Source: Crossiella cryophila (GTDB lineage Bacteria > Actinomycetota > Actinomycetes > Mycobacteriales > Pseudonocardiaceae). Taken from it: a DNA stretch of 64,000 bases. The notes under the pieces are model-generated. The model worked only from the letters and a program-made list of their open reading frames with translations, did no database searches and had not been told where the DNA came from. The position numbers were made by a program, and so were the translations under genes. Shown in pieces: positions 9,440-48,849 of the stretch. The stretch covers positions 9,833,501 through 9,897,500 of the forward strand of contig NZ_JACHMH010000001.1 in assembly GCF_014204915.1 (NCBI RefSeq). Direction: 5' to 3'. Numbering within the stretch: position 1 is the stretch's first letter; each line of letters opens with the position of its first letter.

Positions 9440-11464
9440 TTATCTGGCAGGCAATCCGTGCGCTTCCCGGACCACCGAGACGATCTCGTCCATGATGTCG
9501 GTCAGCTCGTAGTCCTTGGGGGTGAACACCCTGGCCACGCCCTTGGCCAACAGGATCTCGGCGTCCGCGGGCGGGATGATGCCGCCCAGGATCACCGGCA
9601 CGTCGTCGGCGCCTGCCGCGCGCAGGCCCTCGACCACCGCCGGCACCACCTCCAGGTGCGAGCCGGAGAGCACGGAGAGCCCGACCACGTGCACGCCCTC
9701 CTGCACCGCGGCGGCCACGATCTGCGCCGGGGTCAGCCGGATCCCCTGGTACACCACCTCGAAACCGACGTCCCGCGCCCGCACCGCGACCTGCTCGGCG
9801 CCGTTGGAGTGCCCGTCCAGACCGGGCTTGCCGACCAGGATGCGCAGCCGGGACCCGATGTCCTCACCCGCGGCCAGCACCCGCTCGCGCACCTTGGCCA
9901 GTGCCGCGCCCGCCGGGCCCGCGGCCGAGGCCGCCGCCACCCCGGTGGGCGCCCGGTACTCGCCGAAGACCTCGCGCAGCGCGCCGGCCCACTCGCCGGT
10001 GGTCGCCCCGGCCTGCACGCAGGCGATGGTCGCCGCCACCAGGTTGGTCTCGGTCTTGGCCGCGTCCCGCAGTTCGCCAAGCGCTCTGTCCACAGTGGAC
10101 TGATCGCGGTTGCTCCGCCACACCCCGACCGCCTCGGCCGCGTGCCGCTCCACCGCCGGGTCGATGGACTCGATCGCCTTGGCGCCCTCGGCCTGCAGCG
10201 GGCTCGGCTCGGTGGTGGCGAACTTGTTCACCCCGACCACCACGTCCTCGCCGGACTCGACCTTCCGCCGCCGTTCCACCAGCGAACTGACCAGCGCGGA
10301 CTTCATGTAGCCGCTCTCCACCGCGGTCACCGCGCCGCCCATGGCCTGCACCCGGTCGATCTCCGCGCGCGCGCCGCTGACGATCTCCTCGACCTTGGCC
10401 GCCACCACCGGCGAGCCGTCGAAGAGGTCCTCGTACTCCAGCAGGTCGGTCTCGTAGGCCAGCACCTGCTGCATGCGCAGTGCCCACTGCTGGTCCCATG
10501 GCCGCGGCAGGCCGAGCGCCTCGTTCCAGGCAGGCAGCTGGATGGCGCGGGCGCGGGCATTGCGGGACAGGCTCACCGCGAGCATCTCCAGCACGATCCG
10601 CTGCACGTTGTTCTCCGGCTGCGCCTCGGTCAGCCCGAGCGAGTTGACCTGCACGCCGTAACGGAACCGCCGCTGCTTGGGATCGGTGATGCCGTAGCGC
10701 TGCTCGGTGATCTCCTCCCAGAGCTGACCGAAGGCGCGCATCTTGCACATCTCCTCGACAAAACGCACGCCGGCGTTGACGAAGAAGGAGATCCGCGCGA
10801 CCACCGCGCCGAACCGCTCCGGCGGCACCTGCCCGGAATCACGCACCGCGTCCAGCACCGAGATCGCCGTGCACATCGAGTAGGCGACCTCCTGCACCGG
10901 CGTCGCGCCGACCTCCTGCAGGTGGTACGAGCAGATGTTGATCGGATTCCACTTCGGCACGTGCTGCACCGTCCAGGCCACCATGTCGGTGATCAGGCGC
11001 AGGCTCGGCCCCGGCGGGAAGACGTAGGTGCCGCGGGAGAGATATTCCTTGATGATGTCGTTCTGCGTGGTGCCGGACAGCTTGCCCAGCACCGCCTCCG
11101 GGTCCTCGCCAGCCTCGACCGCCTGCTCCTGGGCGACCGTGACGTACATGGCCAGCAACCACATCGCGGTGGAGTTGATGGTCATCGAGGTGTTCGCGGT
11201 GTCCAGCGGGATGCCGTCGAAGAGCTGCCGCATGTCGCCGAGGTGACTGACCGGCACACCGACCTTGCCGACCTCGCCCTTGGTCAGCTCGTGGTCCGGG
11301 TCGTACCCGGTCTGGGTCGGCAGGTCGAAGGCGACCGAGAGCCCGGTCTGGCCCTTCTCCAGGTTCCGCCGGTAGAGCGCGTTGGACGCCGCCGCCGAGG
11401 AATGGCCCGCGTACGTGCGCATCACCCACGGACGGTCGCGTTCGCGATCGGTCGGGTACGGCAT
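9440..11464 (-). CDS. meaA: Ethylmalonyl-CoA mutase (B12-dependent, MeaA type)
   Basis: 674 residues in one chain. The N-terminal catalytic barrel begins PWVMRTYAGHSSAAASNALY, with GQTGLSVAFDLPTQTGYD, which separates ethylmalonyl-CoA mutases from the methylmalonyl-CoA mutase large subunit. The C-terminal about 140 residues are the cobalamin-binding domain with ILVGKPGLDGHSNGAEQ, matching the DxHxxG ligand motif. It interconverts ethylmalonyl-CoA and methylsuccinyl-CoA in the ethylmalonyl-CoA pathway of acetate assimilation and in supply of polyketide precursors, using adenosylcobalamin. Start ATG 11464 has GAGGTGG well placed. Its usual partner crotonyl-CoA carboxylase/reductase is not in the window, but a cobalamin adenosyltransferase is 1.5 kb away. 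Confidence 0.9.
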   Translation of the reverse strand: MPYPTDRERDRPWVMRTYAGHSSAAASNALYRRNLEKGQTGLSVAFDLPTQTGYDPDHELTKGEVGKVGVPVSHLGDMRQLFDGIPLDTANTSMTINSTAMWLLAMYVTVAQEQAVEAGEDPEAVLGKLSGTTQNDIIKEYLSRGTYVFPPGPSLRLITDMVAWTVQHVPKWNPINICSYHLQEVGATPVQEVAYSMCTAISVLDAVRDSGQVPPERFGAVVARISFFVNAGVRFVEEMCKMRAFGQLWEEITEQRYGITDPKQRRFRYGVQVNSLGLTEAQPENNVQRIVLEMLAVSLSRNARARAIQLPAWNEALGLPRPWDQQWALRMQQVLAYETDLLEYEDLFDGSPVVAAKVEEIVSGARAEIDRVQAMGGAVTAVESGYMKSALVSSLVERRRKVESGEDVVVGVNKFATTEPSPLQAEGAKAIESIDPAVERHAAEAVGVWRSNRDQSTVDRALGELRDAAKTETNLVAATIACVQAGATTGEWAGALREVFGEYRAPTGVAAASAAGPAGAALAKVRERVLAAGEDIGSRLRILVGKPGLDGHSNGAEQVAVRARDVGFEVVYQGIRLTPAQIVAAAVQEGVHVVGLSVLSGSHLEVVPAVVEGLRAAGADDVPVILGGIIPPADAEILLAKGVARVFTPKDYELTDIMDEIVSVVREAHGLPAR

Positions 11465-11578
11465 TTCGCCACCTCGCTCACGACTGTGTGTGCGAGTTAG
11501 CGTACTGGCCGGTAACCACGCTGCGACGTGCAATTCCTCACAGCGGGTGAGTCGGCGAAACCTATTCCGGCGAATTCT

Positions 11579-11593
11579 CCGGGGTTTCCCCGG
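11579..11593 (-). terminator. Short hairpin directly after murA
   Basis: CCGGGG (11579-11584) TTT CCCCGG (11588-11593) abuts the murA stop codon. It separates murA from meaA, which is transcribed in the same direction. On the minus strand AGAATT follows. Small stem, so moderate confidence. Confidence 0.45.
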
Positions 11594-12862
11594 TCAGCGT
11601 TCCGGGTCGGCGCTGACCCGCTGGACGTCGGCGCCCAGCCGCTGCATGTTCTCCACGAACCGGGGGTAGCCGCGGTCGATGTGGAAGACGTCCCAGACCT
11701 CGGTGACGCCCTCGGCGACCAGTCCGGCGATGACCAGTCCGGCGCCCGCGCGGATGTCGGAGGCCCACACCGGCGCGCTGGAGAGCTTCTCCACGCCGCG
11801 GACCACCGCGTGGTGGCCGTCGGTGCGCGCGTCCGCGCCCAGCCGCATCATCTCCTCGATGAAGCGGAAGCGGGCCTCGAACACGTTCTCGGTGATCATC
11901 GAGGTGCCCTCGCAGACCGCGGCCAGCACCACGGCGAAGGGCTGGTTGTCGGTGGCGAAGCCCGGGTAGGGCAGGGTGACGAAGTCGACCGCCTGCGGAC
12001 GGCCCTCCTGCACCACCCGGAAGCCCTGCTCGGTCAGGGTGACCTCGGCGCCGGCGGCGCGCAGCTTCTCCAGCACCAGGTCCAGGTGGTGCGGGTCAAC
12101 ACCCTTGATGTGCAGGTCACCGCGGGTGGCCACGGCGGCGAGTGCCCAGGTGGCGCCGACGATGCGGTCGCCGATGACCCGGTGCTCGGTTGGCTCCAGC
12201 TTCGAGACCCCGTGCACGGTGAGCGTGGAGGTGCCCGCGCCCTCGATCTTGGCGCCCATCTGCTGCAGCATCACGCACAGGTCGACGATCTCCGGCTCGC
12301 GCGCGGCGTTGTCGATCAGCGTGGTGCCCTCGGCCAGCACCGCGGCCATCAGGATGTTCTCGGTGGCGCCCACGCTGGGGAAGTCCAGCCAGATCTGCGC
12401 GCCGTGCAGGTTCTCCGCCTCGGCCACCACACAGCCGTGCTCGATGCCGCTGGTGGCGCCCAGCTTGCGCAGACCGGCCTGGTGCATGTCCAGCGGCCGG
12501 GAGCCGATCGCGTCCCCGCCGGGCAGCGCCACGACCGCCTTGCGGCAGCGGGCCACCAGCGGGCCCAGCACGCACACCGAGGCACGCAGCTTGCTCATCG
12601 AGGCGAAGTCCGCGCGGTGGTTCAGCTCCGCGGGGGTGGTGATGGTGGCCACGTCGCCCACGATCTCCACCTCGCAGCCGAGGCCCCGCAGCACATCGCC
12701 CATCAGGGGGACGTCCAGGATCTCCGGGCAGTTCGTGATCGTGGTTGTGCCCTCGGCCAGCAACGCGGCCGCCATGAGCTTCAACACGCTGTTCTTCGCG
12801 CCTACGACGTCGACCTCGCCGACCAGTCGTGCGCCACCCGTCACCCGGAAATGCTCACCCAC
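11594..12862 (-). CDS. murA: UDP-N-acetylglucosamine 1-carboxyvinyltransferase
   Basis: About 422 residues, full length for MurA, starting near [26 protein letters not shown]. It transfers enolpyruvate from PEP to UDP-GlcNAc, the first committed step of peptidoglycan synthesis, in the cytoplasm. The active-site loop reads [15 protein letters not shown]: the usual Cys (Cys115 in E. coli) is Asp, as in M. tuberculosis, which makes the enzyme insensitive to fosfomycin. GTG at 12862 is preferred by homology; TTG at 12883 in frame is the alternative. Divergent from the adenosyltransferase gene over about 56 bp. The same neighbour pair is found in M. tuberculosis. Confidence 0.95.
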
Positions 12863-35963: not shown

Positions 35964-36215
35964 CGTCTTGTTCCTTTCTCAGGGGCCGCCGGGTCCCCAC
36001 GAGCCGTACAACGGGGTGAACCGGAGCCTTATTCCGACCCCTGAGTATGCCAGGTCTTCGGCAGTGCTCTCGCCGTGGTACCGCTCACCTCCAGAATCCG
36101 ACCTCCGGGCGCAATGGCCGGACCATCGGGCGCATTGCCAGCGCAGACTGCTGTTATCGGTCACGGGCCGCAGCAAAATCATCACGTGCTGTGTGCGGCG
36201 AGCTGGCGAGTACCC

Positions 36216-36587
36216 ATGCTGACCTGGCTGGGAATCCCGCTGCTGGTCATCGGATCGATGGTCGGCATCGGTGGTCTCGGCCTGCTGGCCTTCGGCTCCC
36301 CCACCCAGCTCTACAGCGCGACCTTCGGCGTCGCCGCCGCGCTCGGCCTGGTCACCAGCCGCAACGTGGTCTGGCAGGCCGGCTGGCAGCGGCACGGCCT
36401 GCGCTGGCCCTACCTGCTGGCACTGGTGGCCGCCGGGGTCGCCCTCGACGGGCAGGAGCTGCCCTCCTGGCTCGCGGTCACCCTCGGCGTGCCCTGCCTG
36501 CTGCTGCTCGTGCGCACCCTGCGCAAGTTGCCCACCCTGGACGCCGACGGCGGCTGTGCCGAGACCAGGGATCTGATCAGCACCTGA
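36216..36587 (+). CDS. Small four-helix membrane protein, unknown function
   Basis: 123 residues, almost entirely hydrophobic with four predicted helices (LTWLGIPLLVIGSMVGIGGLGLLAFG, LYSATFGVAAALGLV, WPYLLALVAAGVALDG, LAVTLGVPCLLLLVRTL). No recognised family. ATG 36216 chosen because the hydrophobic run starts right there; the open frame continues upstream without codon-like sequence. Divergent from rpmE. Followed by a very strong terminator that also serves the convergent ketosynthase gene. Confidence 0.6.
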   Translation: MLTWLGIPLLVIGSMVGIGGLGLLAFGSPTQLYSATFGVAAALGLVTSRNVVWQAGWQRHGLRWPYLLALVAAGVALDGQELPSWLAVTLGVPCLLLLVRTLRKLPTLDADGGCAETRDLIST

Positions 36588-36612
36588 TGAGCCCGCTCCC
36601 CTGCTGAAACGG

Positions 36613-36651
36613 AAACGGCGCGTCCCCCGCAGGCCCGGGGACGCGCCGTTT
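36613..36651. terminator. Strong bidirectional terminator at left edge of the accessory block
   Basis: AAACGGCGCGTCCCC (36613-36627) and GGGGACGCGCCGTTT (36637-36651) form a perfect 15 bp stem with a 9 nt loop, T-rich on the plus side. It lies between convergent genes: the small membrane protein and the ketosynthase. Confidence 0.85.
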
Positions 36652-36668
36652 TCGGTGTGGCTGAGGGC

Positions 36669-37931
36669 TCAGCTCTCCCAGCTCTTGGCGACCAGCACCG
36701 CGTTGTGCCCGCCGAAGCCGAAGGAGTTGCTCATCGCGTACCGCACCTGGTGCTCCTGCGGCGCGTTGGGCACGAAGTTCATTTCCGCATCCAACGGGTT
36801 GTGCAGGTTGATCGTGGGCGGCACCACGCCGGTGCGCATGGCGAACCCGCAGGCGATCAGCTCGATCGCACCCGCGGCGCCGATCATGTGCCCGGTCATC
36901 GACTTGGTGGAGCTGACCGGGATCTTGGTGGCGTGCTCGCCAAGCACGTTGCGGATGGCCAGGGTCTCGGTCTTGTCGTTCAGCTCGGTGCTGGTGCCGT
37001 GCGCGTTGATGTAGTCGATCTGCTCGGGAACCACCCCGGCGTCGGCCAGCGCCCTGGTCATCGCCCGCCGCGCGCCCGCGCCCTCCGGGTGCGGGGCGGT
37101 CCAGTGGTGCGCGTCGGAGGTCGAGGCGTAACCCACGATCTCGGCCAGGATCGGCGCACCCCTGCGCAGCGCGTGATCCAGCGACTCCAGGATGACCACG
37201 CCGGAACCGGCGGCCATCACGAAGCCGTCCCGGTCCGCGTCGAAGGGCCTGCTGGCCCGCTCCGGGTCGTCGTTGCGCCGGGACAGCGCCCTGGCGTTGG
37301 AGCTGGAGGCGATGTCCAGCGGGGTGACGCTCATCTCCGCGCCACCGGCGATGACCACGTCGGCCTCGCCGTACTGGATCCAGCGGGTGGCGGTGCCGAT
37401 CGCGTCGGTGCCGGTGGCACAGGCCGAGTTGAGCGCCAGGGTCGGGCCGGCCGCGCCGAACATCAGGCTGACCTCGCCGGTGGCCGAATCGTGCGCGCCG
37501 GTGATGGCCTGGTAGGCCCCGACCGCGCGACCGCCCTTCTCGGTGAGCAGCTTGACCGAGTCCTGCATGTACTTCATCGCGCCGTAGCCGGTGCCGATGA
37601 GCACGCCGCAGCGCGGGGCCAGCTCGCTGTCGATGGTCAGCTTGGCCGCTTCGACCGCCTGGATCGAGGCGGCCACCCCGTACTGGGCGAAGAGGTCCAT
37701 CCGCCTGCTGAGCTTGCGCGGCATGTGGTCCTCGGCCACGAATCCCTTGACCTCGCCCGCGATCTGGGACGGGAAGGGCTCGGCGTCGAAGGTGGCGATC
37801 CGGGCGATCCCGCTGCGCCCGGCCATGAACGCGGACCAGGTGTCCTCCGCGGTCAGGCCGACCGGGCTGATCGCGCCCCAGCCGGTGACGACCACCCGCG
37901 GCCGGTGCTTCCGGAACTCTGCTACCGACAT
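36669..37931 (-). CDS. Beta-ketoacyl-ACP synthase II-type ketosynthase
   Basis: 420 residues of the FabF fold. The catalytic triad is intact: nucleophile Cys in LALNSACATGTDAIG, His in INAHGTSTELND and His in KSMTGHMIGAAGAIE. It would catalyse decarboxylative condensation of a malonyl-carrier with an acyl chain. No acyl carrier protein, ketoreductase or malonyltransferase gene is near, so it is not a housekeeping fab operon. It lies 31 bp after the ligase-reductase fusion gene and is likely its operon partner. ATG 37931 with GGAG at 8 nt. Confidence 0.88.
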   Translation of the reverse strand: MSVAEFRKHRPRVVVTGWGAISPVGLTAEDTWSAFMAGRSGIARIATFDAEPFPSQIAGEVKGFVAEDHMPRKLSRRMDLFAQYGVAASIQAVEAAKLTIDSELAPRCGVLIGTGYGAMKYMQDSVKLLTEKGGRAVGAYQAITGAHDSATGEVSLMFGAAGPTLALNSACATGTDAIGTATRWIQYGEADVVIAGGAEMSVTPLDIASSSNARALSRRNDDPERASRPFDADRDGFVMAAGSGVVILESLDHALRRGAPILAEIVGYASTSDAHHWTAPHPEGAGARRAMTRALADAGVVPEQIDYINAHGTSTELNDKTETLAIRNVLGEHATKIPVSSTKSMTGHMIGAAGAIELIACGFAMRTGVVPPTINLHNPLDAEMNFVPNAPQEHQVRYAMSNSFGFGGHNAVLVAKSWES

Positions 37932-37962
37932 TGGCTTTTCTCCACCTCGTATGTCCGACCGG

Positions 37963-40593
37963 TCAGGCGTTGGCCATGCGGTTCTTGCGGGCCGCGGGCA
38001 GGTGTTCGGCGACGACCTTGGAGATCAGCAGCGGCTCGGCCACCCGCTGTCCCTGGTAGGCCACGTAGTTGGCGGCCACGCCGTACCCACCGAACGGCTT
38101 GTTGCCGTCGTCGGTGTCCAGCACGGTGAGGTTGACCGACACGTAGTGCCGCTTGCCCAGCGTGGAGACGACATCCGGCGCGTCGCCGTAGACCATCGCG
38201 CCCATCGCCCGCTCGTTCACCGTGGGGTGGTTGGCGAAGGCCCGCAGTTGCTGGGTGTTCTGGTAGACGACCACGTTGAAGATCGGCGCGAACGTCTCCT
38301 CGATGGGCATCTTCTTGTTGTAGGGGCGCACCAGCACCGCGGGCTCCAGGTGCCGGGAGCGGAAGTCCAGCCGCCCGCCGGCCACGATGTGCTCGCGGTT
38401 GAGGCGCAGGTAGTCCGCTGCCGCCTCGATCGCGGTCTCGTAGTACAGCGGGCCGTAGTCCGCGGCCGGGTCGGTGTAGCTGCCGTAGCGCAGTTCGCCG
38501 ACCCGCTTGGTGAGCTGGTCCACGAACGCCTCGGCCTCACCGGCGTGCACCAGGAAGACGTCGGGGGCGAAGCAGTCCTGGCCGGAGTTGAGCATCCGGA
38601 TCCGCACCGCGTCGGTGACCGCGAGGTCGATGTCCGCGCCCTCGGCCACCACGAACGGGTTCACGCCCTGGCCGAAGAACAGCAGCATCTGGTCATCGCG
38701 CAGCTGGGCCCGGACCAGTTCGGCGTTCTGGTAGGCGCCGGTGAACACCAGCACGTCCGCCTCGGCCACCGGGACCTCGACGAACTGCCGCTGGCTCAAC
38801 GTGGTCAGCTCGATGGTCTCCAGCTTGTGCACCGGCGCGAGCAGGTCGTGCAGCCGCCTGGTGGTGCCGGTGACCTGGCTGGACGGCCGGAAGATGATCT
38901 CGTCGGTGTAGAGCGACGGGATCAGCGTGTAGAGCACGTAGGAGTAGAACAACACGTTGGAGGACATGAACACGGCCATCTTAGGCACCCGGCCGGGCCG
39001 GTAGGCCGAGACCTCCTCCAGGGCGCCTTCCAGCGCGCTCAGCCCGGCCTCGACCTCGTCGAGCACGGCCTTGTGGTTGGAGATCTCGGTCAGCACGTCG
39101 ATCAGCGGCTGCGGGTCGTTGCGGATGTACTCGGCCACCGCGCGCAGTGCGGCCAGTCGCTGCGGGTGCGGCACCGCGGCCAGGTCGGTGAGCCGGGTCA
39201 GATCGGGCTTCCCGTTGTTGTTCAACGGGAACTCGGTCACCACCAGCACCTGGTTGGGCTGCTCGTAGGAGGGCAGCAGCGCGCAGATCTTCTCCCGCCA
39301 GTACCTGGCCTCGCGCAGGTCGGGGTCGGCCACCACGAACACCAGCTGGCTGCCCCGGCGCTCGTCGTCCAGTGCGACCACCTTGACCGCCGCACCGGCC
39401 TCCTCGGCCTTGCGCGCCAAGGCTTCCGGGTAGAGCGTGTGGCCCATCCGGTGCACCGCGTACTTGCGGCCGACCACGTAGAGGTTGCCCTCCTCGTCGG
39501 TGTAGCCGATGTCGTTGGTGCGGTAGACGTCCTCGGCGCGCTCGGTGACCGAGCCGTCCGCGGCCAGGTAGCCGGTGAGCTGACCTGGCGAGCTGACCAG
39601 GATCTCGCCGATCTCGCCCGGCGGGACCGCGTTGCCGTCCTCGTCCAGGATCCGCACGATGACCCCGTCCAGGGGCTGGCCGCAGCCGATCGCGTTGCCG
39701 GGAGCCGCGAGGGCGATGTTGCCGACCTCGGTGCTGCCGTAGCCGTCCAGCAGCGGGTGCCCGGTGGCCACCACGAACTTCTCCGCCAGCGCCCGGTCCA
39801 GCGGCGCGCCGCCCACGCACCACATCCGCACGTCACGCAGGCCAGCCGCGGACTCCGGCCGGCGTTCCACCAGCTTGAGCATGGTGTGGTAGGTCGCGGG
39901 AGTCGCGTCCACCACGGTGGCCCGGTAGCGGCCCGCCATGTCCACCGCGTGGTCCAGCCGGGCATAGGGCGCCACGATCAGCGAGCAGCGCGCGATCCAC
40001 CACAGCAGCACGAGCGAGAGCCCGTACTGGTGGGAGAAGGGCAGCAGCGGCATCAGCACGTCGGCCTCGGTGTAGGCCATCCGCTGCTGGGTGCGCTCGA
40101 TGTTGCCGAGGAAGGACTTGCCCGAGCGCACGATGCCCTTGGGTTCGCCGGTGGTGCCGGAGGACCAGGCGATCAGCGCGTCGGAGCGGGTGAACCAGTC
40201 CACGAAGGACAGTGAGCCGCCAAGGGCCGGGATGGCCGTGGCGTCCTCAAGCAGGCCGTCCAGGCTGATCACCCGGTCGGCGTCGAGCACGGTCAGGTCC
40301 TGGCTGACCTCCGGGCGCACCAGCGCCCAGCCCGCCCGAGCGAAGGCGGTGATCCGCGCCGTCTCCTCGGGGGTCTGCCGGTGGTCCACCAGCACGATCG
40401 AGATGTCCAGATGCACCAGGGCCAGAAGCACGGTGACGTATCCGGCCGAGTTGTCCGCCTTGAGGATCACGCGGTTCCCGGGACACAGCCCTCGAGCGCG
40501 CAGTGCGGCCGCCACCCGCAGTGCGTCCTGCTCGACCTCGGCCGTGGATCGCACGGAGTTCGCTGTCACCAACCTGGCTGCCACAGGTTCCAC
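37963..40593 (-). CDS. Fusion of acyl-AMP ligase and aldehyde-dehydrogenase-fold acyl reductase
   Basis: 876 residues. Residues 1 to about 480 are an adenylate-forming (ANL) ligase: SSGTTGEPKG at 144-153, YGSTEVGN near 285, RTNDIGY near 358, and catalytic-type NGKPD with Lys462. Residues about 530-876 follow the aldehyde dehydrogenase fold: SSNVLFYSYV (Asn546), VFTGAYQN, LNSGQDCFAPD (Cys674), ETFAPIFNVVVY and KPFGGYGV. The general-base Glu of true aldehyde dehydrogenases is absent (LLFFGQGVNPF), as in acyl-transferring reductases. Inferred role: activate a carboxylic acid as AMP ester, pass the acyl to Cys674 and reduce it to aldehyde, like LuxE plus LuxC in one chain and without a carrier protein. 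GTG start with GGGAG at 8 nt. The direct link between domains is my inference. Confidence 0.82.
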   Translation of the reverse strand: MEPVAARLVTANSVRSTAEVEQDALRVAAALRARGLCPGNRVILKADNSAGYVTVLLALVHLDISIVLVDHRQTPEETARITAFARAGWALVRPEVSQDLTVLDADRVISLDGLLEDATAIPALGGSLSFVDWFTRSDALIAWSSGTTGEPKGIVRSGKSFLGNIERTQQRMAYTEADVLMPLLPFSHQYGLSLVLLWWIARCSLIVAPYARLDHAVDMAGRYRATVVDATPATYHTMLKLVERRPESAAGLRDVRMWCVGGAPLDRALAEKFVVATGHPLLDGYGSTEVGNIALAAPGNAIGCGQPLDGVIVRILDEDGNAVPPGEIGEILVSSPGQLTGYLAADGSVTERAEDVYRTNDIGYTDEEGNLYVVGRKYAVHRMGHTLYPEALARKAEEAGAAVKVVALDDERRGSQLVFVVADPDLREARYWREKICALLPSYEQPNQVLVVTEFPLNNNGKPDLTRLTDLAAVPHPQRLAALRAVAEYIRNDPQPLIDVLTEISNHKAVLDEVEAGLSALEGALEEVSAYRPGRVPKMAVFMSSNVLFYSYVLYTLIPSLYTDEIIFRPSSQVTGTTRRLHDLLAPVHKLETIELTTLSQRQFVEVPVAEADVLVFTGAYQNAELVRAQLRDDQMLLFFGQGVNPFVVAEGADIDLAVTDAVRIRMLNSGQDCFAPDVFLVHAGEAEAFVDQLTKRVGELRYGSYTDPAADYGPLYYETAIEAAADYLRLNREHIVAGGRLDFRSRHLEPAVLVRPYNKKMPIEETFAPIFNVVVYQNTQQLRAFANHPTVNERAMGAMVYGDAPDVVSTLGKRHYVSVNLTVLDTDDGNKPFGGYGVAANYVAYQGQRVAEPLLISKVVAEHLPAARKNRMANA

Positions 40594-41654
40594 CGCTGGT
40601 CTCCCACCCCTCGCCCGGATTCACCCCGCCGATGGCCTGCCCACAGCTCGCGGCGAGCGCGCGCGATTGCCATCCGGGGTTTAGATGCCCTACTTTTGCT
40701 CACGTTGTGTGTCGGACCACTGACAGTGGGTTCACACCCGGGTCAGTCGCCCCTGTGCCCCGTGGCCCGCCACCGGCCACGGTTCCGTTCCACCAATTTC
40801 CGCAATGGCCGGAACACCCACTCAAATTACCGGGGCGTAGTCATGTTTCGACAATGAGAACTTTCTGACGTTCTTCCGGCTAGATAAAACTTCCTGAAGC
40901 AGGTCTCCCGCTGCGGCCGGCCGGGGGCTGCGTTCAAGCGGCACGCGAGCTACCACCCGATCTACGCAACAACCCCAGTATGCCTGGCCGGTTCCGGCGC
41001 ACCCTGGCTGATCTGCCGCGATCAGGAGAACTTCCACCCACCTGGCGGCCCGATCGGGCTGGTCGGGGCCACCTGGACCGACTCTCGTCGCCTAGTCCCG
41101 ATCACCCAGGAGCTAGGCCGAACAGGCTATTCGAGCTACCGCCGAACGGCTGTTCGCGGACTGTTCGCGCGTCCGGGAGAGCGGGCAAAGGGGCCGGTTG
41201 ACACAGAGCGCGCCAACTCCGGCAAACCATTCCCTCAGTCTCGCGACCTACGTGAACTTATTATCGAACAGTCGACCGAATTAACCTGATCCAGCGAAAA
41301 AGACGTCAAGCCAGCGCAAAGTGCGAGGGTGAATAACCGACCGCGTTCTGGAAGAACAACAGAGGTGCCGACGACCAGGAGCCCGCCCCCCTCGGTCCAC
41401 GACCGACTGGACGGTCGGCCCATGTGGTACCGGTCTCACGCGTCCGACCTGCGGCGAAGCCGGGGCAGGCGGAGCGGGGCCGGGGTGACCCCCGGCACAG
41501 CACGTGCGGGCCAGGAAGTCCAGCGGCAACGCGTTCCGGGATCAGCGAACTGAGAGTCGCCGGGCCGCCAGGCTGGCATCGCGCAAGCCGGTCGAAGCGG
41601 ACGGCCGGGCGAACAGGATGTCGATGCGGCCGGCGGAACCCCTGGGAATAGGGT
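40594..41654. other. 1.06 kb gene-poor region between the ligase-reductase operon and the lanthipeptide locus
   Basis: I see no convincing gene on either strand. The 71-codon minus-strand frame at 40822-41037 resembles nothing and has mixed codon use. It must contain the promoter of the ligase-reductase operon. Structures: palindrome CCACTG-A-CAGTGG at 40717-40729; hairpin CCGTGGCC/GGCCACGG at 40760-40782; CGAACAGGCTATTCG at 41119-41133 and CGAAC-GGCT-GTTCG at 41143-41156, two similar dyads 24 bp apart; and a TTGACA at about 41198 on the plus strand without a good -10. The stretch 41221-41340 is clearly less GC-rich than the surroundings. Confidence 0.5.
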
Positions 41655-41691
41655 CGGGGGATGCTCCCGGTCGCGGCGAGAGCATCCCCCG
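41655..41691 (-). terminator. Terminator of the lanthipeptide operon
   Basis: CGGGGGATGCTC (41655-41666) and GAGCATCCCCCG (41680-41691) form a perfect 12 bp stem with a 13 nt loop, 24 bp after the precursor-peptide stop on the minus strand. It marks the end of the synthetase-precursor transcript and separates it from the ligase-reductase genes. Confidence 0.8.
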
Positions 41692-41715
41692 ATGGCACAC
41701 ATGGTGTGCGGTGTG

Positions 41716-41820
41716 TCACCAGCAGATCAGCAGACTCAGCGTGCTGATCAGGCCCGCGCCGAACTCGGCGGAGCCGTCGACCTCGGCAGGCTCGATCGCC
41801 TGCAGGTCCAGTACGTCCAT
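41716..41820 (-). CDS. Class III lanthipeptide precursor peptide
   Basis: A 34-residue gene, too short for normal gene calling. The leader starts MDVLDLQAIEPAEVDG and carries LDLQ at residues 4-7, the (I/L/V)xLQ recognition motif of class III leaders. The C-terminus is GAGLISTLSLLICW: Ser26, Ser29 and Cys33 form SxxSxxxC, the labionin/lanthionine ring motif, and resembles the SLLLC ring of SapB. One ring only, with a very short hydrophobic core and a terminal Trp. GGAGGTGA lies 8-9 nt before the ATG and overlaps the synthetase stop, so it is coupled to the synthetase. The product would be a small, hydrophobic, morphogen- or antibiotic-like peptide. Confidence 0.85.
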   Translation of the reverse strand: MDVLDLQAIEPAEVDGSAEFGAGLISTLSLLICW

Positions 41821-41828
41821 CCGGGTTG

Positions 41829-44387
41829 TCACCTCCCCTCGTGCGCTCGGGCGAACAGTGGCAACGCCCCGGTGGTCACGGCGTGCAGCGCGAGCAGCAC
41901 GCCTGCCGAACCGGTGGCGAGATCGTGGGACAGCCGCAGCAGCGCGTCACCGGGGAAGGCCAGCCCGCCCCCGTGCGGCACCGCGTGCCAGGCCAGCCTG
42001 CTGACGTGACCGCGCAGGGTGTCCTGCACCCGGTCACCGTCCACCCCGGGCAGGCCGCGGAGCGCGGCGAGCGCGCACACCAGTCCGGCCCGGCCGGTGA
42101 ATAGTCCGCTGTGAATGGTGAACTCTGCTTCCAGTGCCCGCTGCACAGCCGGCAGCGCCCCGGTGAACACCGGGTCCGGCCGCTGCCGCAGCAGTTCGGC
42201 CATGGCCAGGCCGATCCCGGCGGTGCCCGCGGCCAGGTAGGGCAGCAGCCTGCGACCGGCGCGGACCCGCAGGGCCCCGTCCGCGGTCAGCTCGGCCTGC
42301 TGGAGGTCCCGGTGCAGTGCTCGACCGGCCGCGTCCAGCAGTCGTTCCGGGCCGCCCTCGGCGTGGGCACGACTGAGGAACAGCGCCGCGCCCGCACCGC
42401 CCCGGGTGAGTCCGGGCAGTCCGAAGGGCACCGCCTCGGCCCCGGCCAGCAGCCGGGTGGCCACCCGGTCGGCCAGGTCCAGGCCCCATTCGGTGAGCCA
42501 GCTCCGGCCGATCACCCGGCCCAGGTGCAGCAGGGTCAGCCCGATCCCTGCCAGGCCCTCGTACAGATCGAGACCCGCGCAGGCCTCGGTGGCCGCGGCC
42601 GCCCGCCGCAGCAGCTCCTGCGCGGTCTCGGTGTGTCCGAACTCGGCCAGCACCAGCGCGATGCCGTGCCCGCCCGCGAACAGTCCCGGCCGGCCGGCGC
42701 CGCGCCGGGCCAGTGCCCGCAGCAGCCAGTCCTCGTACTCGGGGAAGCGGCCGGATCCGCTGGTGTGCAAGGCGTAGAGCACCCCGGCCGCACCGTGCGC
42801 CAGCCCGAGGCCGTCCTCGGCGAACTGGGCGATGTCGCCGGGGAAGAGCCGGTCACTCCGCTGCGGGGTGGCCGCGGCCACGATCGCCGCGGTGATCCGC
42901 TCGCGCAGCCGGGCCAGGTCGGCGGGGCCGGTGGCGAAGGCGGGCGGCACCGGGTCCCGGGTGCTGGGTGGCGGGGACCCGGCGCCGGCACAGAGTCGCG
43001 CCAGGATCGGCCGCACGTACTCCGGCGGCAGCGGGAACCGGGCCAGCACCGCGGCGCAGAGCGAGCGGACCTTGCCGGGTGCCAAGGCGCACAAGGAGTT
43101 CAGCGGCAGGAACAGCGCGAGGCGGAGCGCGGCCAGCGCGTAGTGGTCCACGTCGAAGCCGCCAACCCCCGGCGGGGCGGTGTAGCCGGGCGCGCCCAGC
43201 GGGGCGCGGGTGGCCGCCGAGACCGGGGCGGCCAGCTCGAAGTCCAGCAGGGTGATCCGGCCGTCCGGCCCGACCATGATGTTCATCGGGTGCAGGTCGC
43301 CGAAGACCACCCCGCGCTCGTGCAGTGCGGCCACCGCCGCGGTGACCTTGGCCACCACCTCCAGCGCCCACTGGGTGTACCCGGCCACCGCGGCGTCGTC
43401 GGCCCCGGCGCCAGCCAGTGGGTAGCGGCGGACCAGTTCGGTGGCCAGCGGCACGCCCTCGACGTGGCTGAGCGCGAGGAACTCGTGCTCCCAGCAGGTG
43501 AAGCGGCCCAGCACCTCGGGCACCCCCGGCAGTCCGGCCAGCAGGCCGAGCATGGCGTGCTCGTTGGCCAGCCGGTGCACCGCGTCGTGCCCGTCCACGT
43601 CCAGCCCGGCGTGCGGGCGGGCCTCCTTGAGCACCAGCTGCCGCGAGCCGTCCGGCTCCTCGGCCAGGTAGACCCCGCCGGCGTTGGAGAAGTGCAGCGG
43701 GCGCAGCACCCGGTAGGGCAGGCCGGCCCGCGCGCGGCGGCGGTCCAGGTGCGGCCGCAGCACCTCGGGCAGCGCCACCCAGGCCGGCGGGCTGAACCTC
43801 GGGCCGCGCTCGTCCGGCACCAGGTTGCCCTCGGGGTCGGCCAGTGCGGGCACCAGCTCGCCGTCGGCGGTGACGCAGCGCCGCTCGGCGAAACCGCCGT
43901 AGCGCACGTAGAGCGGGCCCTGGCCCCAGCGCAGGTCGTTGAGGATGTACGGACCGGGGCGGCCGGCCAGCTGCGGGTCGAGCCGGTGCAGTGCCCTGGC
44001 GAACTGGGTCTCGTCGGCCGGGTAGAGGGTGATGAACTTGCCGCTGGCGCCGCGGGCGGCGTACTTGGCGTTGTGCGCGAGCACCGCGGCCCTGCTGTCC
44101 AGGAACTTGAACGGCACCCGGTGCAGCAGGCAGTCGGCGGCGACGGTCTCCAGCACCTCGGCCGCCCCGTCCGGAGTGGCCGAGACGTGGATCTTCCAGC
44201 CCTGCTCCGGGGTGGGCGCGCCCTGGGGGTGGAAAACCACCCAGGATTGCTGCCTGCTGCGCCGCCAGTGCGGTGGCAGCGGGGCGCTGACCAGCGGGTA
44301 CCGCTCGACCGCCGCGGTCCGGTGCGCCGGGGAGTCGTAGAAGTAACGATCGACGAAACAATACTTCTCGTATTCGACTTCAATCAC
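41829..44387 (-). CDS. Class III lanthipeptide synthetase (LanKC)
   Basis: 852 residues in three domains. The N-terminal lyase domain (about 1-200) contains WKIHVSATPDGAAEVL. The Ser/Thr-kinase domain (about 225-480) has LVLKEARP (Lys254), the catalytic loop VVFGDLHPMNIMV (Asp364) and LLDFELA. The C-terminal LanC-like domain (about 510-852) keeps the GxxG barrel repeats (LAHGAAGVL, FAGGHGIAL, LYEGLAGIGL, LTRGGAGAAL, LAAGTAGIGL, LFTGRAGLVC, LATGSAGVLL) but not the Cys-Cys-His zinc ligands, which makes it class III, not IV. It phosphorylates and eliminates Ser residues and forms the thioether or labionin ring in the adjacent precursor. GTG at 44387 with GAGGAGG at 9 nt. Confidence 0.93.
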   Translation of the reverse strand: MIEVEYEKYCFVDRYFYDSPAHRTAAVERYPLVSAPLPPHWRRSRQQSWVVFHPQGAPTPEQGWKIHVSATPDGAAEVLETVAADCLLHRVPFKFLDSRAAVLAHNAKYAARGASGKFITLYPADETQFARALHRLDPQLAGRPGPYILNDLRWGQGPLYVRYGGFAERRCVTADGELVPALADPEGNLVPDERGPRFSPPAWVALPEVLRPHLDRRRARAGLPYRVLRPLHFSNAGGVYLAEEPDGSRQLVLKEARPHAGLDVDGHDAVHRLANEHAMLGLLAGLPGVPEVLGRFTCWEHEFLALSHVEGVPLATELVRRYPLAGAGADDAAVAGYTQWALEVVAKVTAAVAALHERGVVFGDLHPMNIMVGPDGRITLLDFELAAPVSAATRAPLGAPGYTAPPGVGGFDVDHYALAALRLALFLPLNSLCALAPGKVRSLCAAVLARFPLPPEYVRPILARLCAGAGSPPPSTRDPVPPAFATGPADLARLRERITAAIVAAATPQRSDRLFPGDIAQFAEDGLGLAHGAAGVLYALHTSGSGRFPEYEDWLLRALARRGAGRPGLFAGGHGIALVLAEFGHTETAQELLRRAAAATEACAGLDLYEGLAGIGLTLLHLGRVIGRSWLTEWGLDLADRVATRLLAGAEAVPFGLPGLTRGGAGAALFLSRAHAEGGPERLLDAAGRALHRDLQQAELTADGALRVRAGRRLLPYLAAGTAGIGLAMAELLRQRPDPVFTGALPAVQRALEAEFTIHSGLFTGRAGLVCALAALRGLPGVDGDRVQDTLRGHVSRLAWHAVPHGGGLAFPGDALLRLSHDLATGSAGVLLALHAVTTGALPLFARAHEGR

Positions 44388-44437
44388 GCCGGCCCACCTC
44401 CTCGATTTTTCCGCGATTTCCCCGTCGAGCAATTAGA

Positions 44438-44465
44438 ACCCTACCCGCACCACGCATTTCCTCAA
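44438..44465 (-). promoter_or_regulatory. Candidate promoter of the lanthipeptide synthetase-precursor operon
   Basis: On the minus strand TTGAGG (44465-44460) and TAGGGT (44443-44438) are 16 bp apart, placing a start about 45 nt before the synthetase GTG. The 160 bp gap after the response regulator gene is AT-rich for this genome, supporting a separate promoter. Confidence 0.4.
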
Positions 44466-44547
44466 TACGCTAAGCGGTCTACCTTTTTCGCCACGAAAGT
44501 CGCAGGAAAGGATCGGCGCGCAACTTTAGTCGCGGGCAATCCGTTGC

Positions 44548-45225
44548 CTACTCCGGGGAAATCGAGACCAGCCCGGTCCGGTACGCGAAGATGGCCAGCT
44601 GAACCCGGTTATCCAGCCCCAGCTTGGCCAGCACCCTGGTCACCCGGCTCTTGACCGAGGACTCGGTGCTGTCCAGTTTTTCCGCAATGGCGGCATTGGA
44701 CCAGCCGGTGGCCACCAACTTCACCACATCGATCTCCCGCTCACCGAGTAGACCAATTCCCCTGGCCACCGCCGGATCGGGCTGCACCATCCGGTGCACG
44801 GTGTGCTCGATCAGGCGCAGGGTCACCGCGGGGGACAACATGGCATCGCCCCTGGAGACCACCCGGACCGCGTGCGCCAGCTCCTCCGGCGAGGTGTCCT
44901 TGCGCAGGAACCCGCTGGCCCCGGCGGCCAGCGCGGAGTAGACGTGGAAGTCGGAGTCGAAGGTGGTCAGCATCAGCACCCTGGGCCGCGGCGCCGGGCC
45001 GGTCCACTCCCCGACCAGCCTGCGGGTGGCGCCGATGCCGTCGAGTTCGGGCATCCGCACGTCCATCAGCACCACGTCCGGGCACAGCTCGGCGGCCTTG
45101 GCCAGCGCGGCCACCCCGGTGGCGGCCTCGCCGACCACCTCCAGGTCGGGGCGCAGCGAGAGCAGGGTGGACAACCCCGCCCGCACCACCGCGTCGTCGT
45201 CGACGAGCAGCAGGCGAATGCTCAC
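44548..45225 (-). CDS. NarL/FixJ-family response regulator
   Basis: 225 residues. Receiver domain with acidic pocket DDD, phosphorylated Asp in PDVVLMDVRMPELDG, and Lys in GFLRKDTSPEEL; C-terminal LuxR helix-turn-helix GEREIDVVKLVATGWSNAAIAEKLDSTESSVKSRVTRVLAKL. GTG start overlaps the kinase stop in GTGA. By position it should control the lanthipeptide operon 160 bp downstream, in the role RamR plays for SapB in Streptomyces. Confidence 0.92.
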   Translation of the reverse strand: MSIRLLLVDDDAVVRAGLSTLLSLRPDLEVVGEAATGVAALAKAAELCPDVVLMDVRMPELDGIGATRRLVGEWTGPAPRPRVLMLTTFDSDFHVYSALAAGASGFLRKDTSPEELAHAVRVVSRGDAMLSPAVTLRLIEHTVHRMVQPDPAVARGIGLLGEREIDVVKLVATGWSNAAIAEKLDSTESSVKSRVTRVLAKLGLDNRVQLAIFAYRTGLVSISPE

Positions 45226-46418
45226 GAGACGCTCCGCAGCGGGATCCGCGCGTCCACCACGTACCCGCCGTCGGGCGCGGCGGCCGAACTCAGCTCGCCA
45301 CCCAGCCTGGCCACCCTGGCCTGCATGCTGAGCAGCCCCAGCCCACTGCCGGGCACCGAGGGCAGCCGGGCCGCCCTCGGCGGCTCGTTGACCACCCGCA
45401 ACCGCAGCGCGTCGGTGGCGGTGTCCACGCCGACCTCGATGCTCACCCTGGTCGGCGAGGCGTGCTTGACCACGTTGGTCAGCGCCTCCTGCAGCACCAG
45501 GAACCCCTCCGCGCCCACCTCGGGGCGCATCGAGCGCGGCAGCTCGGCCACCGAGAACTCCACATCGTTGCCCGCGTTGCGCACCGCGGAGGCCAGCCGG
45601 GTCACCCCCTCCGGCCCGCAGTCGGCGCCGTCAGGGGAGTCCGCGATGCCGCGCAGCAGGTTCTGCAGCCGGACCATCTCGGTCATCGCCTGCCTGCTGG
45701 ACTCGCGGATCTGGTTGGCCGCCAGCACCGCCTGCGGATCCCGCCGGGCCAGCAGCTCCTCGAAGACGTGCGTCTGCACGGACAGCGCGCTGAGGTGGTT
45801 GCCCACCACGTCGTGCAGGTCCAGCGCGATCCGCTCGCGTTCGGCGCCCACCGCCGAGCGCACCTCCCGGCTGCGCCGCTCGCGCTGCCGGTGCACGCTG
45901 CGGCGCAGCGAGCCCACGTGCGCGGCGAAGCGGTGCTGATGGCTGCCGATCATGTAGGCCAGGCCCACCGCCAGCGCCACCACCAGCCAGTCGGCCAGCT
46001 GGATGTGCTTCTCATACATCAGGCTGACGATCACCGCGTGCGCCCCGCCCCAGCCCGCCACCACCCAGACCACCCACGGCCGGTGCCTGCGCGCGCCGTA
46101 GCGGCCCAGCGCGTGCGCGGCGATGAGCAGCGGGATCCCGCCGGTCATCTCCGGCACCCCGAGCACCCCTCGGGCCAGCACCATCGCGCCCACGATCAGG
46201 AAGATCACCACCGGCCTGCGCCTGCGCAACAGCAGCGGCAGGGTCGCCCCGTAGGCCGCCAGCGCGCCCGCGGCCAGCCGCCAGGGTTCGGCGGGGACCA
46301 GGAACAGCGCGAGCAGGTCCAGCGCCCCGAGCGCGCCGACCAGCAGCACGTCAGGGGTGCTTTGCCTCGCGCCACGCGACCACACCGACAGCCGCCTCCC
46401 ACTAGACGCCCGTGTCAC
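45222..46418 (-). CDS. Sensor histidine kinase (HisKA_3 type)
   Basis: 398 residues. The N-terminal half has about five or six membrane helices with little extracytoplasmic sequence. Then come the dimerisation box ERIALDLHDVVGNHLSALSVQ with the phosphorylated His, and the ATPase domain ALTNVVKHASPTRVSIEVG with GSGLGLLSMQARVARLGGEL. Partner of the response regulator. GTG 46418 is preferred because TTGAGC and TACCTA promoter-like elements lie just upstream; an ATG at 46457 would sit within them. Confidence 0.9.
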   Translation of the reverse strand: MTRASSGRRLSVWSRGARQSTPDVLLVGALGALDLLALFLVPAEPWRLAAGALAAYGATLPLLLRRRRPVVIFLIVGAMVLARGVLGVPEMTGGIPLLIAAHALGRYGARRHRPWVVWVVAGWGGAHAVIVSLMYEKHIQLADWLVVALAVGLAYMIGSHQHRFAAHVGSLRRSVHRQRERRSREVRSAVGAERERIALDLHDVVGNHLSALSVQTHVFEELLARRDPQAVLAANQIRESSRQAMTEMVRLQNLLRGIADSPDGADCGPEGVTRLASAVRNAGNDVEFSVAELPRSMRPEVGAEGFLVLQEALTNVVKHASPTRVSIEVGVDTATDALRLRVVNEPPRAARLPSVPGSGLGLLSMQARVARLGGELSSAAAPDGGYVVDARIPLRSVS

Positions 46419-46725
46419 CGTTCCGCCCACCACTCCCAGTAGGTAAATACCTGGCATCCGCGCCGCTCAACCACCCAGGACAGAAGCCGTCACCTAATCG
46501 GCCCAATGCCCTTATTGTCTGCGCAACGACAGCTGCCGCCTTTCGGTCAGGGCTATTGCGCCCACCGGACTACTGCACACGGAGCCAACCGATCGCGTCA
46601 CCTGCTGACTCCCGGACAGCGCTGTTGGCGATCGGCTAACCTGGCGGATTTCTTGACTCCCAAAAGGATCGTTCTGGGGCAACAGCGCGATCCGGTCACA
46701 AACCGAACGTCCCTTTGGCGACAAA
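46419..46725. promoter_or_regulatory. 307 bp region between the histidine kinase gene and the rho terminator
   Basis: No gene seen. It holds the kinase promoter (TTGAGC at about 46470 and TACCTA-like element near 46445, minus strand) and part of the rho 3' region. It marks the right border of the block inserted between rho and rpmE. Confidence 0.4.
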
Positions 46726-46764
46726 AAGCGGGCGCCCCCGGCCATCGGCCGAAAGCGCCCGCTT
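46726..46764 (-). terminator. Intrinsic terminator of rho
   Basis: AAGCGGGCGC (46726-46735) and GCGCCCGCTT (46755-46764) form a perfect 10 bp stem, with a smaller GGCC/GGCC hairpin in the loop. On the minus strand it is followed directly by TTTTTG, a clear U tract. 15 bp after the rho stop codon. Confidence 0.8.
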
Positions 46765-46779
46765 ACTTACCGACGAGTA

Positions 46780-48849
46780 TCAGTCGTCGTTGCTGCCTGG
46801 CGTGTTCTTCGAGACCGTCATCAGGAACTCGATGTTGGTCCGGGTCTTGCGGAGCCGGTCCAGCAGCAGGTCGATGGCCTGCTGGTCGTCCAGCGCCGCC
46901 AGCACCCGACGGAGCTTGATGGTGACCGCCAGCTCGTCCGGAGAGAGCAGCAGCTCCTCCTTCCGGGTGCCGGAGGCATCCACGTCGACCGCCGGGAAGG
47001 TGCGCTTGTCGGCGATCTTGCGGTCCAGCTTCAGCTCCGCGTTACCGGTGCCCTTGAACTCCTCGAAGATGACCGTGTCCATGGTGGACCCGGTCTCCAC
47101 CAGCGCGGTGGCGAAGATGGTCAGCGAACCGCCACCCTCGATGTTGCGCGCGGCGCCGAGGAAGCGCTTGGGCGGGTAGAGCGCGGTGGAGTCGACACCA
47201 CCGGAGAGGATCCGGCCCGAGGCGGGGGCGGCCAGGTTGTAGGCGCGGCCCAGCCGGGTGATCGAGTCCAGCAGCACGACCACGTCGTGTCCCATCTCCA
47301 CCAGGCGCTTGGCGCGCTCGATGGAGAGTTCGGCCACGGTGGTGTGGTCGCCCGGCGGCCGGTCGAAGGTCGAGGCGATGACCTCGCCCTTCACCGAACG
47401 CTGCATGTCGGTGACCTCCTCAGGGCGCTCGTCCACCAGGACGACCATGAGGTGGCACTCCGGGTTGTTCGTGGTGATCGCGTTGGCGATCGCCTGCAGC
47501 ACCGAGGTCTTGCCCGCCTTGGGCGGGGAGACGATCAGCGCGCGCTGTCCCTTGCCGATCGGCATCACCAGATCGATGACGCGCGTGGTGAGGATGTGCG
47601 GCTCGGTCTCGAGGCGCAGTCGCTCGTTCGGGTACAGCGGGGTCAGCTTGGTGAATTCCGGGCGGCCGCGCACGGCCTCCGGCTCCAGGCCGTTGATGGA
47701 GTCCACCCGCACCAGCGGGTTGAACTTCTGCCGCTGCGCCTCCCCGTCCCGGGGCTGGCGCACGGCGCCGGTGAGCGCGTCACCACGGCGCAGGCCGTAG
47801 CGGCGGACCAGCGACAGCGAGACGTAGACGTCGTTCGGGCCCGCCAGGTAACCGGAGGTGCGCACGAAGGCGTAGTTGTCCAGCACGTCGAGGATGCCGG
47901 CCACCGGCAGCAGCACGTCGTCCTCGCGGACCTCGGTGTCGCCACCGCCGCCGCCACGACCGCCCCGCTCGCCACGGTCACCGCGATCTCCACGGTCACC
48001 GCGCTCGGTCCCGCCACCCTCGCCATCCCGGCCACGGTTGCGCCGACGGTCCCGGAAGCGGCGGCCACGCCGCCCCCTGCCGTCCTCGTCCTCGTCGTCC
48101 TCCACGCCCTGCGGCTGACTCTGGGCCGCCGCGGCACGTTCGCCCCGGTCCCCGCGGTCATTGCGGTCGCTGCGGTCGTTGCGATTGCGGTTGCGGTCGT
48201 TCCGGTTGCCCCGGTCTCCCCGCTCACCACGGTCGCCCCGCTCACCGCGTTCCTGCCGCTCGCCACGCTCGGCCCGCTCCTGGCGCTGCTCGGCCGGCTT
48301 CTCCCGCTGCTCGGTGGCGACAGCGACAGGCTGCTCCACCTGCTCGACGGGCTTGTCGGCCTGGGGCTGCTCCGGAGCGCGCTCGCGGGGGTTCCGCTGC
48401 TCGCCCTCCGGGCTCCCGGCCGGACGGGTGGCCGCCCGACGGCGGCGGTTGCGCCGGGCATTGTCGCCCCCGGCGTCGCCCTCACCAGCCGCGTTGTCCG
48501 CGGCGGCGGGGGTTGCGGCGGGCGCCGGGGCGCTCTCCACCGCGGTGGCCTTTGGCGCGGGGGTGCTTTCGGCACCCAGCGCCAACTGACCGGTCTCGGC
48601 CTTGGCCGGCTTGGCAGCCTCGGCGCGTGGCGCCGAACCGCCGCCTTGCCGCTCCTTGATGGCGGCGATCAAGTCGCCCTTGCGCATCCCACTGGTGTTG
48701 CCGATGCCCAGCTCACCAGCGAGCTGACGCAGCTCGGCGAGCACCATCCCGGAAAGGCCGCCACGACGTCGAGTCGCCGTGCCATTGGCCGAAGGGCTGG
48801 CAGCGGTCGTCTCGACCGCGTCGCCGCCCAGTAGTTCGGTTTCGCTCAC
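46780..48849 (-). CDS. rho: Transcription termination factor Rho with long basic insertion domain
   Basis: 689 residues, against about 420 in E. coli. The N-terminal Rho_N helix bundle (LSGMVLAELRQLAGELGIG...MRKGDLIAAIKERQ) is followed by about 200 residues of low complexity rich in Arg, Asp, Gly, Gln and Asn with RGDRGERGDRG-type repeats. Then come the RNA-binding OB fold (VAGILDVLDNYAFVRTSGYL), Walker A VSPPKAGKTSVLQ, Walker B HDVVVLLDSITRL and R loop. The insertion is a known actinobacterial feature that helps RNA binding and alters response to inhibitors. GTG start with AAGGA at 6 nt. Confidence 0.96.
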   Translation of the reverse strand: MSETELLGGDAVETTAASPSANGTATRRRGGLSGMVLAELRQLAGELGIGNTSGMRKGDLIAAIKERQGGGSAPRAEAAKPAKAETGQLALGAESTPAPKATAVESAPAPAATPAAADNAAGEGDAGGDNARRNRRRRAATRPAGSPEGEQRNPRERAPEQPQADKPVEQVEQPVAVATEQREKPAEQRQERAERGERQERGERGDRGERGDRGNRNDRNRNRNDRSDRNDRGDRGERAAAAQSQPQGVEDDEDEDGRGRRGRRFRDRRRNRGRDGEGGGTERGDRGDRGDRGERGGRGGGGGDTEVREDDVLLPVAGILDVLDNYAFVRTSGYLAGPNDVYVSLSLVRRYGLRRGDALTGAVRQPRDGEAQRQKFNPLVRVDSINGLEPEAVRGRPEFTKLTPLYPNERLRLETEPHILTTRVIDLVMPIGKGQRALIVSPPKAGKTSVLQAIANAITTNNPECHLMVVLVDERPEEVTDMQRSVKGEVIASTFDRPPGDHTTVAELSIERAKRLVEMGHDVVVLLDSITRLGRAYNLAAPASGRILSGGVDSTALYPPKRFLGAARNIEGGGSLTIFATALVETGSTMDTVIFEEFKGTGNAELKLDRKIADKRTFPAVDVDASGTRKEELLLSPDELAVTIKLRRVLAALDDQQAIDLLLDRLRKTRTNIEFLMTVSKNTPGSNDD

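Follow-up and report, generated by a model that had tools for sequence, protein, structure and literature searches.

A predicted one-ring class III lanthipeptide operon between rho and prfA in the genus Crossiella

Introduction

Is a class III lanthipeptide with only one ring a working product of Crossiella cryophila, and would the single ring make it new in kind? The question is raised by a 64,000-nucleotide stretch of the 10.06-Mb genome of this actinomycete (contig NZ_JACHMH010000001.1, positions 9,833,501 to 9,897,500; termed the window below), in which a 34-codon precursor gene, here called LanA, lies directly behind the gene of a LanKC synthetase (lyase-kinase-cyclase). Two rings are described for durhapeptin, SapB, AmfS and rochsin A (PMC13380574), and 2304 class III precursors, more than half of them unannotated, have been compiled (PMC7268733). 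We consider it probable that the pair works as a class III lanthipeptide operon whose product would carry one ring and may play a SapB-like role at the cell surface.

The precursor gene and its synthetase

The pair comprises two genes:
44387 to 41829, minus strand: LanKC, class III lanthipeptide synthetase, GTG start, 852 aa, with the Pfam domains RamC_N, Pkinase and LANC_like
41820 to 41716, minus strand: LanA precursor, ATG start, 34 aa plus stop, sequence MDVLDLQAIEPAEVDGSAEFGAGLISTLSLLICW

The leader of LanA carries the motif LDLQ at residues 4-7, and the core contains a single motif, S26xxS29xxxC33, with one Cys and the terminal Trp34, all of which had been read correctly in the 34-codon gene by an earlier note on this DNA. 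The peptide exceeds the cut-offs of the Pfam family RamS (PF19402; 32.0 bits against 24.3) and of the NCBIfam family SapB_AmfS (NF033212; 30.1 bits against 25), and it also matches three further class III precursor models below their cut-offs. LanKC reaches 988.7 bits with the class III model NF038151 (cut-off 575) and 391.5 bits, below the cut-off of 650, with the class IV LanL model. These curated matches, together with the positions of the two genes, bear out the proposal of the same note that a class III precursor lies beside its LanKC; a precursor with an LxLQ leader and an SxxSx(2-5)C core thus adjoins a LanKC.

The chance occurrence of such a frame was gauged in control loci (the rho surroundings of 20 other genera, 278 kb in all), where none of 2262 frames combined leader and core motifs; the separate rates (2 frames with the leader, 91 with the core) give a joint expectation of 0.08. 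The window contains one frame with both motifs, and that frame is the one directly behind a LanKC.

The synthetase is intact in every respect inspected. Judged by motif and matching spacing, it has all eight of the lyase residues listed for ThurKC (PMC10604976), and the DFE motif is present as well. At 95 near-invariant columns, defined as at least 97% constant in the 146 LanKCs outside the five Crossiella, the window LanKC deviates at none.

Conservation in Crossiella

The precursor adjoins an orthologous LanKC in 5/5 Crossiella genomes, namely the window's own and 4/4 others; the proposal thereby withstands the refuting condition set in the earlier note, the lack of a related precursor beside homologous LanKC genes in sister strains. 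The LanKC orthologues are 75-96% identical, while the leader block MDVLDLQAIEP and the C-terminal ten residues ISTLSLLICW are invariant in all five, with Trp34 following Cys33 throughout. The linker between these blocks is variable, and in the genome designated G016 it carries two extra in-frame codons. Compared with G086, the LanA codons of the window show 6 synonymous and 2 non-synonymous changes; compared with G016, 5 synonymous and 7 non-synonymous ones, all 7 lying outside both conserved blocks. An orthologue search across 394 genomes of the class returned one match, in the own genome, at an E value of 0.001 that with a 34-residue query recovers close relatives only; it is silent on distant precursors and missed even those of the genus g3 discussed below.

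This pattern also bears on the notion that LanA arose by chance or is no more than a decayed relic without function, as might be suspected of a gene that has no known product and retains one motif where most relatives have two. Leader and core blocks that stay unchanged in five genomes with synonymous changes inside them, matches to curated families and an intact LanKC argue against such decay, which we regard as highly improbable. The class III pair is real and conserved, and it is probably functional, with one ring in the predicted product.

Transcription and regulation

On the minus strand, the gene order is thrB, rho, histidine kinase, response regulator, LanKC, LanA, a hairpin, a 1.1-kb spacer, a ligase/aldehyde dehydrogenase (ALDH) gene and a ketosynthase gene; the six co-oriented genes from the kinase to the ketosynthase are termed the island. 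The elements that may govern expression of the LanKC-LanA pair are as follows:
45222 to 46457, minus strand: sensor histidine kinase, first island gene after rho, HisKA_3/HATPase_c (Pfam HisKA_3, 4.6e-13)
44548 to 45225, minus strand: NarL/LuxR-type response regulator, Pfam Response_reg and GerE, overlapping the kinase gene by 4 nt
44519 to 44533, minus strand: candidate operator 1, near-palindromic GCGACTAAAGTTGCG, upstream of LanKC, first 14 nt identical in 5/5 Crossiella
44489 to 44503, minus strand: candidate operator 2, GCGACTTTCGTGGCG, first 14 nt identical in 4/5 Crossiella, one change in G016
41692 to 41654, minus strand: hairpin with a 16-bp stem 3' of the LanA stop, probable terminator without a T-run

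The histidine kinase gene is syntenic in 5/5 Crossiella, and the response regulator is 94-99% identical to those of the other four. Both candidate operators are near-palindromic and spaced by 30 bp, and two of the five exact genome matches of the motif are this tandem pair.

A Shine-Dalgarno sequence, coupling and a terminator were reported earlier. A Shine-Dalgarno-like stretch of LanA, GGGGAGG, overlaps the last LanKC codons, and a gap of 8 nt separates the LanKC stop from the LanA ATG. The hairpin is stable (-48 kcal/mol for the 81-nt region, z -5.8, with 0/200 shuffles as stable) and, in contrast to its diverged flanks, varies among the five Crossiella only at the final base, where G016 has G in place of A and pairing persists as U-G. 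On the other side of the account, the hairpin lacks a T-run and was not listed by a consensus terminator scan, and the start codon is uncertain.

A scan of positions 36000-47000 against Rfam matched no family.

Proposed biosynthesis and the nature of the ring

By analogy with known relatives, the following pathway can be drawn. The two-component system would switch the operon on, probably via the tandem sites upstream of LanKC, and LanKC and LanA would share one transcript ending at the hairpin. The leader is expected to dock on LanKC through its LDLQ helix, and the kinase and lyase domains of the enzyme would turn Ser26 and Ser29 into dehydroalanines; addition of Cys33 would then furnish one labionin (less likely one lanthionine) at the C-terminus, leaving Trp34 outside the ring. 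The monoisotopic mass calculated for the 34-mer including Met is 3575.78, which two dehydrations would lower to 3539.76; a twice-dehydrated core beginning at Gly16 would have 1900.98. A protease whose gene lies elsewhere would cleave off the leader. The resulting peptide, predicted to be short and hydrophobic, most likely works in the manner of SapB at the cell surface, either as a surfactant or as a developmental signal, and this role is the weakest link of the proposal. The other LanKC loci found in Crossiella hold no two-ring SapB-type precursor, and the single-ring LanA could therefore be the SapB counterpart of the genus.

A simple lanthionine, in which one Ser is joined to Cys33 and the other is left as dehydroalanine, has to be weighed against the labionin. 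Depending on the class III peptide, the Sx2Sx3C motif yields either lanthionine or labionin (PMC7268733), and SapB and AmfS themselves contain lanthionine (PMC13380574). The eight lyase residues noted above are common to labionin-forming enzymes, which speaks for labionin; yet the same source calls the determinant of labionin formation unknown, so that this likeness is not decisive (PMC10604976). The lanthionine product is considered rather unlikely, and labionin formation remains the preferred reading. A ring motif with two Ser and one Cys is a near-minimal substrate, which would be useful for learning what makes a LanKC form labionin (PMC10604976).

Several observations weigh against the proposed operon as a whole. 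Its function and product are predictions from sequence, and since the characterised SapB-like morphogens have two rings (PMC13380574), a peptide with one may serve another purpose. Relatives of the ABC exporters of multi-ring loci and of the MFS transporters of lipolanthine loci were not found within 5 kb of the island LanKC at any of the five Crossiella loci, the exporter not having been searched genome-wide. The start of LanA is ambiguous, since a GTG at 41832, in overlap with the LanKC stop, could serve instead and lengthen the peptide by four residues (MTTR). The operator motif is no more frequent than chance, with 3 copies in the window against 2.3 expected (42/100 shuffles have as many) and 5 in the genome against 7 for a reversed control, so the operator claim rests on the conservation and pairing of the sites.

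Relation to known class III peptides

One close parallel is the SapB/AmfS (RamS) family, with which the island shares a LanKC with a short LxLQ precursor over curated cut-offs, a NarL-type regulator nearby and a hydrophobic core. It differs in having one ring motif instead of two, in a peptide of 34 aa; in the exporter relative, present within 5 kb at 0/5 Crossiella islands; and in a two-component pair with its own kinase, RamR being an orphan regulator.

One-motif precursors are known from elsewhere. In the Firmicutes Pre_24 class III precursors, each core has a single S-(X)2-S-(X)2-5-C motif, and paenithopeptins and bacinapeptins have been isolated from this group (PMC8960859). They share this single motif with the island peptide, and labionin has been demonstrated in them; they differ in their Firmicutes origin, in the several precursors per cluster of the ptt case, and in the disulfide that accompanies the labionin of paenithopeptins, the island peptide having a single Cys (PMC8960859). 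A further 179 single-cysteine precursors have been predicted, of which the lipolanthines are the characterised ones (PMC11251773). These class III lipid hybrids (PMC10435860), including microvionin, nocavionin, goadvionins and nocaviogua, are likewise short single-ring class III peptides. The island core ends in Cys-Trp rather than Cys, and because Trp34 follows Cys33, decarboxylation to avionin is not expected; neither a GNAT nor a flavoprotein decarboxylase was found beside the island LanKC. A clustered LanD decarboxylase was rejected as a candidate, since none of the five PF02441 matches in the genome lies within 1.6 Mb of the island.

A survey of LanKC loci brought together 151 distinct LanKC frames, of which 145 belong to the family Pseudonocardiaceae and the other 6 lie on named contigs from outside it; the places G037:C377, G061:C231, G061:C783 and G157:C1:4493853 were left out, so that the LanKC loci of the family number at least as many as those collected. 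By a motif rule, the nearest precursors were multi-ring at 81 loci, single-motif at 22 and lipolanthine-like at 12, with none found at 36, a figure that includes any unusual leaders the rule would miss. The label lipolanthine-like denotes precursor motif and length and does not imply a product.

The 22 single-motif loci are made up of 5 from Crossiella, 13 from 9 genomes of the genus g3 and 4 others, and the precursor has a single Cys at 10 of them (5 Crossiella, 3 g3, L162 and L183). The g3 precursors (L014-L018, L021, L028, L037, L092-L095, L099) resemble that of the island in family, LDLQ leader, one SxxSxxxC motif and a hydrophobic LLLC/LLIC ring. They differ in a LanKC that is 45-48% identical to that of Crossiella and forms a separate clade, in adjoining ABC exporters, and in an extra Cys at 10/13 loci, many being rich in His and Asp. 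L018, L021, L092-L095 and other precursors of this genus are His/Asp-rich with the extra Cys placed before the ring (e.g. YDDCHDDCRRHRDCGSDISLLLCG), and such His/Asp/Cys-rich peptides are possibly metal-binding. Two single-motif LanKC loci each occur in four of the nine g3 genomes.

A tree was computed by a quick method, with long-branch warnings, for 78 of the 151 LanKCs (all single-motif and lipolanthine-like ones, every third multi-ring one and every second without a precursor, under a length limit). The LanKCs of Crossiella group together with full support, on a branch distinct from both the g3 clade and the lipolanthine-like group, and the single-motif label requires six changes, at least four of them forced by well supported branches. 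Since the single-motif precursors do not form one clade with the window LanKC, the one-ring form seems to have had more than one origin or to have been retained repeatedly.

In view of the isolated one-motif peptides (PMC8960859), the 179 predictions (PMC11251773) and the 13 g3 loci, the earlier conclusion that a single ring makes the product probably new was overdrawn; a single SxxSxxxC motif alone does not make a product new in kind. The exact LanA sequence does look uncharacterised, no description of this peptide having been found with narrow search phrases, which missed one-motif peptides worded otherwise and left subscription journals mostly outside. What the locus adds is an actinomycete class III peptide that is genus-wide, has one cysteine and one predicted ring, and does not belong to the lipolanthines.

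The island and its lipid-type genes

Two further genes and one repeat complete the island on its prfA side:
37963 to 40593, minus strand: fusion of an AMP-forming acyl ligase with an aldehyde-dehydrogenase-like domain, 876 aa, Pfam AMP-binding and Aldedh
36669 to 37931, minus strand: FabF-type ketosynthase, 420 aa, TIGR03150 at 542 bits (cut-off 494)
40857 to 40874, minus strand: inverted repeat with the sequence AGAAC-N8-GTTCT, located some 265 nt 5' of the ligase/ALDH gene, identical in 4/5 Crossiella, one change in G016

Beyond the ketosynthase lie one plus-strand frame, then a small minus-strand frame, which by eye we take to be rpmE, and prfA. In 20/20 genomes of other genera, rho and prfA are 0.4 to 8.0 kb apart, and the interval between them contained no counterpart of LanKC, the kinase, the regulator, the ligase/ALDH fusion or the ketosynthase; the six co-oriented genes thus entered in Crossiella between rho and the plus-strand frame, either together or in steps. 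The plus-strand frame (36075-36587, 170 aa), without a Pfam match, has relatives between rho and prfA in 8/20 other genera and accordingly belongs to the old neighbourhood, outside the island.

The ligase/ALDH gene, syntenic in 5/5 Crossiella, and the ketosynthase are possibly part of the same system as LanKC and LanA, a link on which the earlier note did not remark, any more than on the exporter relative not found close by. The island may then be read as one hybrid pathway, in which the fusion and the ketosynthase join a fatty acyl or aldehyde unit to the single-ring peptide, giving a lipolanthine analogue without avionin. Six co-oriented genes, common to all five Crossiella and not there in the 20 other genera, accord with it, and ligase/ALDH and ketosynthase genes also stand near LanKC at lipolanthine-like loci of the same family. 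In neighbour counts covering 148/151 loci with a 5-kb window, the ALDH part of the fusion occurs near LanKC at the five Crossiella loci and at 9/12 lipolanthine-like ones (both parts at 5/12 by the thresholds used), compared with 0/81 multi-ring, 0/34 precursor-less and 0/16 other single-motif loci; the contrast between lipolanthine-like and multi-ring loci has a Fisher value of 2e-10, the loci not being independent. Within its own genome, moreover, the island ketosynthase is most similar to that of the lipolanthine-like cluster (61%, six others reaching 30-41%).

These associations are offset by others. No GNAT acyltransferase relative lies within 5 kb of the Crossiella island LanKC, as against 10/12 lipolanthine-like loci, and MFS genes accompany 9/12 of the latter. 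The five Crossiella loci represent one evolutionary event, and the ketosynthase alone is weak evidence, as one stands near LanKC at 17/81 multi-ring loci (1.3-3.2 kb away at L096, L101, L111, L113, L120 and others); an ABC exporter is near LanKC at 77/81. The closest relative of the fusion outside the island orthologues (the paralogue at 2.476 Mb, 74-77%) and that of the ketosynthase (68%, L085) occur at loci without LanKC. The fusion is widespread, in 44/200 genomes of the family at E 1e-100, many of these matching in the ligase part alone. The ligase/ALDH gene also lies 1.1 kb behind the hairpin, with a conserved upstream region of its own and without the LanKC operator sites; a shared operator was rejected on the ground that these sites do not recur there. 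The inverted repeat, with one exact copy in the genome and another place at 2.71 Mb with 3 mismatches, seems to signal a separate promoter region, and the lipid genes look separately transcribed. A single hybrid pathway is therefore judged unlikely. Quite doubtful, too, is its specific form in which a SapB-type single-labionin peptide receives a lipid- or aldehyde-derived group from fusion and ketosynthase by GNAT-free transfer; if true, no lipidated peptide with labionin in place of avionin would precede it, and lipid and ribosomal peptide would be coupled in a novel manner. Should the two enzymes act on the peptide at all, they would provide a second route to lipid-peptide hybrids. The reading preferred here remains the LanKC-LanA operon.

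The spacer between hairpin and ligase gene (40594-41653) is about 1.1 kb long in the five genomes and mostly diverged with indels, apart from a well conserved stretch of some 250 nt that adjoins the ligase gene. A hidden gene in it was rejected, as the sequence diverges with indels, the Rfam scan matched no family and no conserved frame was noticed by inspection.

The own genome also contains what looks like a lipolanthine cluster, L072 (2386001-2406000), with a LanKC at 9776-12415, three short precursors (MAILDLQGLDTNAAELTMTGSTVSNNC and alike) 3-400 nt downstream, a GNAT, a ketosynthase, a ligase/ALDH-like gene and an MFS gene; no flavoprotein decarboxylase gene was found nearby (2.39 Mb). 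In L086 (8286-12766, at about 2.476-2.481 Mb of the same genome), the ligase/ALDH paralogue is directly followed by a thiamine-diphosphate enzyme, and the set of fusion, thiamine-diphosphate enzyme and ketosynthase without LanKC recurs in L084, L085 and L088.

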